DNA of 64,000 nucleotides from Marinomonas arctica (GTDB lineage: Bacteria; Pseudomonadota; Gammaproteobacteria; Pseudomonadales; Marinomonadaceae): assembly GCF_003259225.1 (NCBI RefSeq), contig NZ_QHJF01000009.1, forward strand, positions 124,001 to 188,000, read 5' to 3'. Below are positions 59,445 through 64,000 of the stretch, piece by piece. The stretch's first letter is position 1. Each line of letters opens with the position of its first letter. The notes beneath the pieces are model-generated. The model had not been told where the DNA came from, did no database searches, and was given only the letters and a program-made list of their open reading frames with translations. The translations under genes and the position numbers were made by a program.

Positions 59445-60524
59445 ATGAGCCGAGTATATAATTTTTGTTCTGGTCCAGCAGCGCTTCCAGAAGCGGTTTT
59501 GAAAAAAGCACAGGCTGAAATGTTAGATTGGCATGGTGCGGGTGTTTCTGTGATGGAAATGAGTCACCGCAGTGCTGAGTTTATGTCTATTCTGGCGTCG
59601 GCTAAAGCACGGTTGTCGCGTTTAATGAATATCAGTGACGACTATGAAATCTTGTTTGTTCAAGGTGGTGCGTCTACTTTATTTGCTCAAATTCCTGCAA
59701 ACCTAGTAAACGGATTTGATTCTGCTTGCTTTTTAGACACGGGTGCGTGGTCTTCAAAAGCCATTAAAGAGGCAAAAAGATACACGAACGTTAATGTGGT
59801 TGGCTCATCAAAGGAGCAGAACTATCTTACTGTTCCTGACTTTTCCACTCTATCATTGGATGAAAGTGCCGCATATTTACATCTTTGTCCTAACGAAACC
59901 ATTGGCGGTTTAGAGTTTTCTGATCTGCCAGAGACCAATCTTCCTATCGTTGCGGACTTGTCTTCTACTATTTTGTCTCGAAAAATCGATGTCAGTAAAT
60001 ACGGTCTGATTTACGCTGGTGCGCAAAAGAACGTCGGTCCAGCGGGCGTGGTTATCTGTATCATCCGTAAAGACTTACTGGCGCGCAGCAGTGATGAGTT
60101 GCCATCTATCTGGAACTTTGCCAATTTAGCGGCAAATGATTCCATGATTAATACACCGCCAACGTTTGCGATTTATTTGGCGGATTTGGTGTTTGAGTGG
60201 TTGGAAGCTCAGGGTGGTGTTGAGGCGATCGAGGCCATTAACATTCGTAAGGCGCAAGCTTTATATGACTTCATTGATTCAAGTGATTTTTATTCAAACC
60301 CTGTTGATCCTGCTTACAGATCCCGTATGAATGTGCCGTTCATCTTGGCGGATGAGTCATTAGAGTCTCTTTTCTTACAAGAGTCTGAGGCGGCAGGCCT
60401 GCGCACCTTGGCTGGACATCGTTCAGTTGGTGGCATGCGAGCCAGTATCTATAACGCTATGCCGATGGAAGGGATTGAAGCTTTGATTGACTTTATGCGT
60501 GCCTTTGAGAAGCGTCACGGATAA
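59445..60524 (+). CDS. serC: Phosphoserine aminotransferase
   Basis: The protein has 359 residues, beginning MSRVYNFCSGPAALPEAVLK. PLP-binding Lys is in IYAGAQKNVGPAG. VMEMSHRSAEF and AGHRSVGGMRASIYNAM are typical. It makes phosphoserine, and phosphohydroxythreonine in the pyridoxal pathway. The gyrA-serC-pheA order is as in Pseudomonas. Confidence 0.97.
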   Translation: MSRVYNFCSGPAALPEAVLKKAQAEMLDWHGAGVSVMEMSHRSAEFMSILASAKARLSRLMNISDDYEILFVQGGASTLFAQIPANLVNGFDSACFLDTGAWSSKAIKEAKRYTNVNVVGSSKEQNYLTVPDFSTLSLDESAAYLHLCPNETIGGLEFSDLPETNLPIVADLSSTILSRKIDVSKYGLIYAGAQKNVGPAGVVICIIRKDLLARSSDELPSIWNFANLAANDSMINTPPTFAIYLADLVFEWLEAQGGVEAIEAINIRKAQALYDFIDSSDFYSNPVDPAYRSRMNVPFILADESLESLFLQESEAAGLRTLAGHRSVGGMRASIYNAMPMEGIEALIDFMRAFEKRHG

Positions 60525-60566: not shown

Positions 60567-61688
60567 ATGTCAAACTCTAAGCAAGCAGTACCCGATACGC
60601 TGCCTTTATTGCGTGATCGTATCGATTCTATTGATTCGCAAATACAAATGCTGATCAATGAGCGCGCTAGATGCGCTCAAAAAGTGGCGGAAGTAAAGCT
60701 GGCTGAACAGGGCGGGGAAGCGGTTGTCTTTTATCGCCCAGAGCGCGAAGCGCAAGTGTTGCGCAGAGTGATGGAGCGTAACGAAGGGCCTTTAGGCAAT
60801 GAAGAAATGGCGAAGATCTTTCGTCAGGTGATGTCCTCTTGTTTGGCGCTTGAGAAGCCAATGCGCATTGCATTTTTGGGGCCTGAGGGAACGTTTACAC
60901 AGCAGGCTGCATTAAAACACTTTGGTAAGTCTATTATCAGTGCTCCTATGGCGGCCATTGATGAAGTGTTTCGTGAAGTTGAGTCTGGTGCAGCCAACTA
61001 TGGTGTTGTGCCTGTTGAGAACTCTACCGAGGGCGTGGTTAACCATACCTTGGATAGTTTTCGAGATTCACGTTTAAAGATTTGTGGTGAAGTAGAAGAG
61101 CGCATTCATCACCATCTTTTGGTGAGCCCAAATATTAATGCGGATGATGTGACGCACATTTATTCCCATCAGCAGTCTTTGGCGCAATGTCGCGCGTGGT
61201 TAGATCGTTACTGGCCACACGTTGAGCGTGTTGCGGTGAGTTCGAATGCTGAGGCGGCTCGCCTTGCGGCTGACGCGGGGCGAAGTGGCCGAGCGATTGC
61301 GGCTATTGCAGGTGAAGTGGCTTGTGAATTATATGGCTTATCAAAAGTATCCTCTAATATTGAAGATCGCCCTGATAATACGACGCGCTTTTTGATTGTC
61401 GGTAATCAGGATGTGCCGCCCAGCGGTAAGGACAAAACGTCGCTGCTCATTAGTGCTAAAAATGAGCCAGGCGCTTTGTATCGATTGCTTGAAGCCTTTG
61501 AGCGTCACGGTGTTGATATGACACGTTTGGAGACTCGTCCTTCTTTAATGAGTCGATGGGGTTATATTTTTTATATTGACTTCGTGGGTCATTATTTGGA
61601 CGACGACTGTCGTGCTGTGATTGATGATTTACGTGAACGAGCTTCGGAAGTGAAAGTGTTGGGTTCCTATCCAGTAGCTGTGCTTTAG
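60567..61688 (+). CDS. pheA: Chorismate mutase / prephenate dehydratase (P-protein)
   Basis: The protein has 373 residues. The chorismate mutase domain (about 10-95) has LRDRIDSIDSQIQMLINERA. The prephenate dehydratase domain (about 105-280) has FLGPEGTFTQQAALKHFG and VPVENSTEGVVNHTLD. A C-terminal ACT domain has LETRPS for phenylalanine feedback. It lies 42 bases after serC and is probably co-transcribed with it. Confidence 0.97.
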   Translation: MSNSKQAVPDTLPLLRDRIDSIDSQIQMLINERARCAQKVAEVKLAEQGGEAVVFYRPEREAQVLRRVMERNEGPLGNEEMAKIFRQVMSSCLALEKPMRIAFLGPEGTFTQQAALKHFGKSIISAPMAAIDEVFREVESGAANYGVVPVENSTEGVVNHTLDSFRDSRLKICGEVEERIHHHLLVSPNINADDVTHIYSHQQSLAQCRAWLDRYWPHVERVAVSSNAEAARLAADAGRSGRAIAAIAGEVACELYGLSKVSSNIEDRPDNTTRFLIVGNQDVPPSGKDKTSLLISAKNEPGALYRLLEAFERHGVDMTRLETRPSLMSRWGYIFYIDFVGHYLDDDCRAVIDDLRERASEVKVLGSYPVAVL

Positions 61689-61711: not shown

Positions 61712-63958
61712 TTGATTGGTGAAAGTGATTTTCAGGCGTCCGTTGATATGACGTTTCAGGAAAAAAAGAAGTTTGGCAATGTCATGATCATCGGTCTTGG
61801 CATGATAGGTGGTTCGTTCGCTAAGGCGTTGAAAGAGCGCGGCTTAGCGACCCTATATGCGGTGGATCGTCGTGACGGCGAGCTGGCTTTGGGTGTGTCG
61901 ACAGGGGTGATTGATTATCCTGCCGAATTGTCTGCTGAGTTTGTCTCAAGAATGGACGTTATTGTTCTGGCAACGCCTGTTAGAGCAATGGAGTCTGTTT
62001 TGGCCGATCTCAAGCCTTTTTTGTCTGAGCAGACGCTAGTGACGGATGTGGGGTCGACAAAAGGTAGCGTGGTTGAGGCTGTGCGTCGTGTCTTTGGGCA
62101 TGTTCCTGCTAATTTTATTCCTGGTCACCCTATTGCCGGCGCCGAGAAAAGTGGTGTGTTGGCCTCTAATTCACGGCTTTTCGAAAAACACATGGCGATA
62201 GTGACCCCTTTAGCGGATAGCAATCCTGTATTACTGGATCGCTTGCATCGTCTTTGGCGTGCGGTTGGTGCTGATGTGGTGAGCATGGATGTTAATCACC
62301 ATGATCATGTGCTCGCCTCCTCAAGTCATTTGCCTCACTTGCTGGCCTATACTTTGGTTGATGCGCTGGCCAATGGGGAGCGTAGTCAGGATATCTTTCG
62401 GTTTGCGGCGGGTGGCTTTCGTGACTTTACTCGCATCGCTTCCAGTGACCCGGTTATGTGGCGAGATGTTTTTTTAGCCAACAAAGACGCAACGTTAGCG
62501 ACCCTAGATCACTTTACTGATCGGCTGGCCGATATGCGAGCCGCCATAGAGCAGGGTGATGGCGCTAGTATGTTTGGTGTGTTTACTCGAGCAAAATCTG
62601 CGCGAGATCATTTTCTTCGCTTGTTAGAGCAGCGTACAATAGGCTCCACCAAGGAAGTTCGTCCGGTTTCTGTTTCCGTTTTGCCTGCTTCTGCGATTAA
62701 AGGTGAGGTGTCTTTGTTGGGTGACAAATCTTTGTCACATAAAGCGATTACCATAGCCGCGCTGTCAGAAGGTGTGAGTGAAATAAGGAATATTGATTTA
62801 ACGGGTGATGTGCGCATTACCATGCAAGCCTTCCGAGATATGGGGGTTGTCATAGAAGAAGCCTCGGTGGATCATTTGCGTGTTCATGGTGTGGGGGTTA
62901 GAGGGTTAAAAGCACCGATTGCCCCTATTAATGTTCATCAATCCAGAGAGAGCTTGTATTTATTGTTACCAGTTTTGGCTGGGCAGTCGTTCCCCGTTTC
63001 TGTTATTGCCGAAGGCAAGCTGCTCAATCAGTCAATGGCGGATTTATTTTCTTTGGTGCGCCAAATGGGTGGGAGTGTCCTATCTGAAATGGCGGATTGT
63101 TTGCCTGTTAATCTGTTGCCAGGTAAGCCTTTGGATGTGTCGGTTAATTTAAAGACTGGCTCTGAGCGACTGCGTATGTCTGCTTTTTTGGCTGCCTTGT
63201 ATTCGCCTGTTGAGGGTGTCGTGACAACATTGTCTAAAGAGTTGTCTCATTGTGAAGTGTTGTTGCGTCATTTTGGTGTGACAATATTGGATCATGTCGA
63301 AGGATTTAAGGTTGTTCCTGCTCCATTGGTCGGTGCAGACATAGTGCTGTCGGGTGATGAATACGAATTGACTTGGCTCGTGTTGTTGTCCAGTCTTTTG
63401 CCAGGTTCGGATTTGTCGATCGAAAATGCGGGTTTGGATTCAGTGTCTTTTGCGTTATTGGCTTTTTTGCAGTCAATTGGTGCTGATGTGACTATTCCAG
63501 CACAAAGTGGCTCTGGGTTATTTAAAGGTAAAGTGCAAGTCGGTTTTGCTGAGCTTCGCGCGTTTCATTTGTCGCCTGAGCAAAGCTATCGTTTTAGAGA
63601 TCAGCTGCCTTTGTTGTGTGTTGTGGCGGCATACGCGAGAGGCGAAAGTTTTATTCAGGGTGTCGGTTCTTTGCCTTATTATCATGAAGACAGAGTATTA
63701 GCTTTTGTTGACGCGCTTGAGTATATGAAAATAACGTGTGTGTATGAGAATGGTGATTTGCTCATCAAGGGTGGGCTTCCGCAGGGTGGTGAGCTGGATT
63801 GTGCGGGTGATGATAAATTGGCGCTTGCTATGTTGGCGCTTGGTGCACGCAGTCAATCCATAACAAAAGTCCATGATTGCCAAAGATTATTAGAAGAATT
63901 TAACGAGTTGGAGAGTGTTACGGTGCAATTAGGTTTTCATTGTTCGGTGACGCAGTAG
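61712..63958 (+). CDS. Prephenate dehydrogenase fused to a degenerate EPSP-synthase domain
   Basis: The protein has 748 residues from a TTG start (an ATG at 61748 is an alternative). Residues 22-310 form a complete TyrA domain: IIGLGMIGGSFAKAL, TDVGSTKGSV, GHPIAGAEKSG and HHDHVLASSSHLPH. Residues 325-748 align along the whole length with EPSP synthase (AroA), as in the Pseudomonas TyrA-AroA fusion. The AroA catalytic motifs are changed: SISHR to SLSHK, NSGT to QSRE (410-413), RPM to NQSM, SAQVKS to SERLRM (484-489), RDHTER lost, KESDR to HEDR (658-661), DHRIAM to DDKLAL (700-705). Prephenate dehydrogenase activity is likely, but EPSP-synthase activity is doubtful. Confidence 0.88.
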   Translation: MIGESDFQASVDMTFQEKKKFGNVMIIGLGMIGGSFAKALKERGLATLYAVDRRDGELALGVSTGVIDYPAELSAEFVSRMDVIVLATPVRAMESVLADLKPFLSEQTLVTDVGSTKGSVVEAVRRVFGHVPANFIPGHPIAGAEKSGVLASNSRLFEKHMAIVTPLADSNPVLLDRLHRLWRAVGADVVSMDVNHHDHVLASSSHLPHLLAYTLVDALANGERSQDIFRFAAGGFRDFTRIASSDPVMWRDVFLANKDATLATLDHFTDRLADMRAAIEQGDGASMFGVFTRAKSARDHFLRLLEQRTIGSTKEVRPVSVSVLPASAIKGEVSLLGDKSLSHKAITIAALSEGVSEIRNIDLTGDVRITMQAFRDMGVVIEEASVDHLRVHGVGVRGLKAPIAPINVHQSRESLYLLLPVLAGQSFPVSVIAEGKLLNQSMADLFSLVRQMGGSVLSEMADCLPVNLLPGKPLDVSVNLKTGSERLRMSAFLAALYSPVEGVVTTLSKELSHCEVLLRHFGVTILDHVEGFKVVPAPLVGADIVLSGDEYELTWLVLLSSLLPGSDLSIENAGLDSVSFALLAFLQSIGADVTIPAQSGSGLFKGKVQVGFAELRAFHLSPEQSYRFRDQLPLLCVVAAYARGESFIQGVGSLPYYHEDRVLAFVDALEYMKITCVYENGDLLIKGGLPQGGELDCAGDDKLALAMLALGARSQSITKVHDCQRLLEEFNELESVTVQLGFHCSVTQ

Positions 63959-63977: not shown

Positions 63978-64000
63978 ATGATCAACCAAGGCCCAGTTAT
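63978..64000 (+). CDS. cmk: Cytidylate kinase, first codons (cut by window edge)
   Basis: An ATG at 63978 with AAGAGG upstream reads MINQGPV(I), matching the start of cytidylate kinase (…PVITIDGPSGSGKGT). It follows the aroA-type gene 19 bases on, the tyrA/aroA-cmk-rpsA order known from Pseudomonas. Only seven full codons are visible, so the call relies mainly on this order. Confidence 0.7.

Follow-up and report, generated by a model that had tools for sequence, protein, structure and literature searches.

The EPSP-synthase half of the TyrA-AroA fusion protein of Marinomonas, here called AroA', has almost certainly ceased to work as an EPSP synthase, as judged from the residues that it has lost and from the presence of another aroA copy in the genome. 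The domain is kept by purifying selection and is not drifting freely. We consider it probable that the separate aroA took over the catalytic task of the domain, and that Marinomonas has since kept AroA' to support or stabilise the structure of TyrA. Together with related lineages in which the fused domain is intact, mildly changed, dead but kept, or absent, the genus forms a replicated series showing the fate of a fused half once another gene takes its job, and the entrenched and regulatory fates of dead domains thereby become directly testable. Dead or discarded domains of fused enzymes have precedents in Pseudomonas syringae and in Candida Aro1. Searches of one literature library for Marinomonas and EPSP synthase found no paper on the Marinomonas case.

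The fusion gene lies near the end of the window, the 64,000-nucleotide stretch of Marinomonas arctica DNA analysed here, and its features are collected in the table. Translation could begin at TTG 61712 or at ATG 61748. The 748-residue product aligns with practically the whole TyrA-AroA fusion model NF011381 (model positions 2-732 of 733) and scores 921.7 bits, against a cut-off of 902. It is preceded by frames that we take to be pheA-, serC- and gyrA-like, and followed after 20 bases (window position 63978) by a presumed cmk-like frame and, beyond the window, by one that is presumably rpsA-like; all of these labels come from sequence and gene order. At least 51% identity to the fusion was found in 37 public loci, 36 titled Marinomonas and one Maribrevibacterium, the closest being that of M. 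rhodophyticola (96%). In the TyrA half, Pfam PDH_N and PDH_C both score above their cut-offs, many motif columns are invariant among 66 aligned sequences, alignments were obtained to 4wji and 3ggg, and the nucleotide-binding and catalytic-domain motifs of a TyrA dehydrogenase are conserved. Domain order and length are the same as in the Pseudomonas TyrA-AroA protein (TyrA-AroF, NF011381/PRK14806), but the AroA half of the window protein lacks most of the active-site residues.

Features of the tyrA-aroA' fusion and of the genes upstream of it, in window coordinates
Feature	Position	Strand	Remarks
serC-like gene, upstream	59445..60524	+	presumed identity
pheA-like gene, directly upstream of the fusion	60567..61688	+	presumed identity
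tyrA-aroA' fusion gene	61712..63958	+	single stop-free frame, 748 aa
TyrA (prephenate/cyclohexadienyl dehydrogenase) domain	61769..62641	+	residues 20-310
Linker	62642..62668	+	residues 311-319; 311-315 at pLDDT <50 in the model
Part of AroA' best conserved within Marinomonas	62651..63010	+	residues 314-433
Degenerate EPSP-synthase domain AroA'	62669..63955	+	residues 320-748; EPSP-synthase fold predicted with high confidence

Pfam EPSP_synthase matches AroA' over residues 326-726 at 128 bits. By comparison, whole fused or class II domains in other-family genomes score 373-413 bits, except that two of these genomes show just fragments or a weaker, incomplete match. Here and below we assume the naming of AroA proteins as class I and class II. 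Against the aroA model TIGR01356 (cut-off 287.25), the fusion protein scores 143.9 bits and the AroA' domain alone 146.3, both below the cut-off. AroA' has the predicted fold of an EPSP synthase but lacks most of the conserved substrate-binding and catalytic residues of an active one, as well as a passing TIGR01356 score. Because NF011381 accepts the protein, annotation would credit it with EPSP-synthase activity; the standard model calls the protein bifunctional, with an activity that it should lack given the residues missing from its AroA half.

Residue loss was assessed on the alignment of 66 sequences (A1), which includes 18 of the 25 loci L070-L094 and 10 of the 11 loci L184-L194, by comparing 26 positions that are conserved among intact class II AroA proteins. 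Alignment columns were computed, and residue labels follow what we take to be E. coli numbering. The domain in the window keeps nine of these positions (K22, S23, S169, the His of RDHTER, D242, D313, D343, R344 and D384) and has replaced the other 17. Across 38 Marinomonas-type sequences, namely the window and 37 named loci whose species overlap with the genome set described below, 6 to 14 of the 26 positions are kept, compared to 24 to 26 in 18 intact pseudomonad-type fusions. K340, E341 and H385 are each kept in 0 of the 38, and R124 (4), Q171 (5), R386 (9), D313 (10) and R27 (11) are mostly lost; mostly kept are K22 (37), S23 (33), S169 (35), D242 (38), D343 (36), R344 (37) and D384 (30). 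The preliminary description of this DNA, made by reading the sequence, had claimed that the EPSP-synthase half lost its catalytic motifs, and the alignment bears this out: RPM, NPTR, ELRVKES and HRIAM are gone or changed. Its statement that only GDKS and one Asp remain was slightly too strong in view of the nine positions kept. The loss is seen genus-wide and so does not stem from faulty sequencing of a single genome.

The divergence of AroA' is general and not aimed at catalysis, because catalytic and other conserved positions were lost alike. Against a reference of 33 intact sequences, for which a motif filter kept 15 of 22 broad AroA loci, the retention of conserved positions was 0.36 for the catalytic list of 26 and 0.40 for 139 other positions (permutation p = 0.35). 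A narrower intact set gave 0.36 and 0.35, and loss confined to the active site was therefore not supported. Fifty-two AroA' positions are fixed (in at least 34 of 38 sequences) to a residue unlike the intact majority. Mean entropy is 0.70-0.94 in residues 314-433, 1.42-2.39 in residues 434-686 and 1.06-1.07 in residues 687-748.

An AlphaFold model of the fusion has a mean pLDDT of 89.6, an AroA' block mean of 94 and a pTM of 0.65, at which the relative placement of the two domains in the model is not reliable. When the model was searched with Foldseek, ranks 1-20 were all EPSP synthases, with TM by target of 0.82-0.92, ranks 21-22 were two chains of a designed hydrolase, and prephenate and cyclohexadienyl dehydrogenases, matching the TyrA half, followed from rank 23.

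A separate true aroA elsewhere in the genome, as predicted from the sequence of the fusion, was found by genome search. The source genome has three EPSP_synthase matches: the separate aroA (477 bits), a murA-like gene (414 bits) and the fused domain (130 bits). The separate AroA passes TIGR01356 (469.4 bits against the cut-off of 287.25), has the expected motifs in reading order, and matches 3nvs of Vibrio cholerae at 622 bits and 3fjx of E. coli at 605 bits. For TyrA, one full match is present in the genome. Another match to PF02153 was considered as a second TyrA and rejected; it is proC (TIGR00112, 263.3 bits against a cut-off of 196.75), and it matches PF02153 at 26.1-26.6 bits over 68 of 154 positions, 0.1 bit over the cut-off when summed with its neighbours.

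The same arrangement was found throughout the genus. A low-scoring fused EPSP-synthase domain is present in all 39 same-genus genomes scanned (35 and 4 more), with a best piece of 61 to 200 bits and, in G015, in two pieces. The fused frames are open in all 39, encode 731 to 772 residues and contain no internal stop. Every one of the 39 also has a separate aroA, which is frame-split in one of them (G011). In that genome the class I aroA (L237, G011:C45:83900-85500) lies over two frames and the fused domain is degenerate too; the split is either a sequencing error or a recent break. Another genome, G031 (99% complete), has two EPSP_synthase matches instead of three, with no murA-like match reported, possibly due to masked or missing sequence.

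Codon models and trees were computed from 31 of the 35 genomes; G011 is without an open separate aroA, G015 is divergent, and G010 and G021 missed the linker motif. Amino-acid tree length was 3.28 for TyrA, 12.46 for AroA' and 2.38 for AroA, so that AroA' evolves 5.2 times faster than AroA. Under MG+F3X4, omega was 0.031 for TyrA, 0.102 for AroA' and 0.031 for AroA. Values of 0.035, 0.117 and 0.036, respectively, were obtained under MG2K+F3X4, a fit in which kappa is extreme (above 40) for TyrA and AroA, and GY2K gave 0.095 for AroA'. For AroA', lnL was -29233 with free parameters compared to -31850 with omega = 1 and kappa = 2 fixed, a cost of about 2617 log units. Pairwise YN00 estimates, which lacked values for at least one gene in 10 of 17 close pairs, gave omega of 0.087 to 0.190 for AroA', 0.002 to 0.036 for TyrA and 0.022 to 0.085 for AroA in six close pairs with AroA' dS below 1.

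Assuming equal rates to all bases and the YN00 dS values, neutral evolution over these six independent pairs would be expected to produce 202 stops within AroA' and another 9.5 within the 15-codon linker. The stop count in the pair set is zero by construction, since the longest stop-free frames were chosen; independent evidence comes from the scans of the 39 genomes. The idea, put forward in the preliminary description, that the domain is under selection agrees with these results: omega for AroA' (0.095-0.117, compared to 0.031-0.036 for TyrA and AroA) came from the dN/dS comparison across related genomes that had been proposed as a check, omega = 1 fits far worse, and the 39 fusions are free of stops. 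Purifying selection after the loss of catalytic residues is one feature expected of a pseudoenzyme domain retained for a non-catalytic role, and AroA' shows it. A sequencing error or pseudogene was rejected on the basis of the open frame in all 39 genomes and an omega well below 1.

Across the order, class I AroA, called at 54% or higher identity to a reference locus (L001) with six weaker matches (32-38%) left uncounted, occurs in 60 of 293 sampled genomes. Four of the 60 have an intact fusion beside it (26 of 26 sites in G041, G090 and G134, and 25 in G206), 24 have a substituted fused domain, and in 32, some of them fragmented assemblies, none was found. The substituted domains belong to 13 same-genus genomes, five f6g46 genomes (22-24 sites kept), four f37g37 genomes (19-20), G247 (11) and G254 (9). 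Some of the 233 genomes that lack class I AroA were scanned with PF00275, and the matches listed are high-scoring fusions. Related families with a similar aroA thus form a series from intact fusion through mild and strong decay to no fused domain.

In a TyrA tree, for which a motif filter removed 6 of 18 candidates and 9 same-genus genomes were used as a subset, the unfused proteins of G106 and G185 nest with fused G247 (support 99/93), and those of G192, G214 and G235 join fused G041 (100/100). These unfused proteins are most simply explained by deletion of the domain. In the AroA tree, Marinomonas and family f37 are joined with support 94/97. The class I AroA proteins of the compared families are about 66-72% identical to that of Marinomonas, which fits an old gain of class I aroA and does not prove a single gain. 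Because intact fusions occur in f37 next to a class I AroA, decay seems to have followed the gain and to have proceeded independently in f37 and in Marinomonas.

The history that we favor would begin with a TyrA-AroA fusion whose EPSP synthase, of class II, was active. The separate class I aroA, whose presence is observed and whose transfer long ago we infer, would have made the EPSP-synthase activity of the fusion unnecessary. In Marinomonas, as the sequences show, the fused domain has lost most of its catalytic residues and yet stays under purifying selection, and TyrA may by now need the folded domain in order to be stable, soluble or correctly assembled. A clean deletion would no longer be tolerated in Marinomonas, though it seemingly is in related lineages. 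With retention genus-wide and the old pocket variable, the data are most simply met by a role in structure or stability; dependence of TyrA on the folded domain is the most likely cause of retention, at about even odds.

Several findings count against this history. Purifying selection could reflect only the avoidance of misfolding, and the fast evolution of AroA', its general divergence and the absence of a firm inter-domain arrangement in the model weigh on the same side. Unfused TyrA is present in related genomes, so the domain is no general requirement of TyrA, and PMC1173090 notes that the P. stutzeri TyrA core has been studied in a form engineered free of the fusion, indicating that TyrA works without the domain. 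One alternative, which we regard as rather unlikely, is that AroA' is a passive remnant with no positive role, retained because changes that unfold it or cut it part-way damage the TyrA joined to it, while clean deletions seldom arise. The fast and general divergence, the variability of the old pocket between species and the decay or absence of the fused domain in other lineages agree with a passive remnant. However, stops in the linker would amount to clean deletions, and none is reported in the 39 fusions, although about 9.5 would be expected neutrally over the six close pairs; the 52 positions fixed to a new residue in Marinomonas-type sequences also speak for more than passive persistence.

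Alternatively, AroA' could be a putative allosteric module that binds a small anion, such as shikimate 3-phosphate or phosphoenolpyruvate, and tunes TyrA. The polar residues still present leave room for ligand control: K22, S23, S169, D242, R344 and D384 are mostly kept though most of the pocket has changed, and keeping them is not automatic, since the four f37g37 genomes have lost R344 and D384. Song et al. 2005 (PMC1173090) proposed a fate of this kind for the P. syringae remnant. On the other hand, the old ligands are unlikely to be bound tightly, given how rarely R27, R124, Q171, K340 and H385 are kept (11, 4, 5, 0 and 0 of 38), and some of the retained residues may be structural. We therefore view an allosteric module as distinctly unlikely, and hold in similarly low regard the idea of a true sensor in which a shikimate-pathway anion, bound in the remainder of the old cleft by these six residues, would control TyrA; if the latter were correct, an enzyme of the pathway would have become an allosteric domain that acts on a later step. 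It is highly improbable that AroA' retains EPSP-synthase activity, or has become a different enzyme, by means of other residues. The conserved fold and a few remaining polar residues speak for it, but there is no constant replacement set, since the 38 sequences mostly carry Y (20), H (8) or C (6) in place of E341 and have E (15), D (10), N (6) or other residues at D313, and a separate aroA is present.

Known systems resemble the Marinomonas fusion in part. Fungal AROM-derived regulators such as QUTA reuse EPSP-synthase-like parts without catalysis; these are transcription regulators and, unlike the Marinomonas fusion, are not attached to TyrA. In P. syringae, as described by Song et al. 2005 (PMC1173090), TyrA-AroF lost about 200 residues of its EPSP-synthase half, a loss coupled with a separate aroF that is thought to have been transferred, and a regulatory-domain fate was proposed for the remnant. 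The fused EPSP-synthase half was thus given up alongside a separate gene in both cases, although the P. syringae remnant is shortened by deletion whereas the Marinomonas domain is full length, predicted to be folded, present genus-wide and, by measurement, under purifying selection. According to PMC9074039, Candida albicans Aro1 has an inactive DHQase domain that is compensated by Dqd1 and mediates the Aro1 homodimer; replacing this dead domain with a short linker caused no detected growth defect, which indicates that a dead domain can be dispensable. It is likewise a dead domain in a shikimate-pathway multi-enzyme whose step moved to a separate enzyme, but the domain, the organism and the fusion differ, and the inactivity was measured there and is deduced from residues in Marinomonas.

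Two minor observations were made in the wider sample. A Gly96 to Ala change is common to the mildly changed fusions L185-L192 (eight of nine from f6g46 and f37g37, the exception being L184) and is also present in the otherwise intact fusion of G206 (L236); this change is termed glyphosate-insensitive in the title of PDB entry 1mi4. In G424, the class I AroA match (L208) lies inside an open frame of 703 residues, which is perhaps another fusion.
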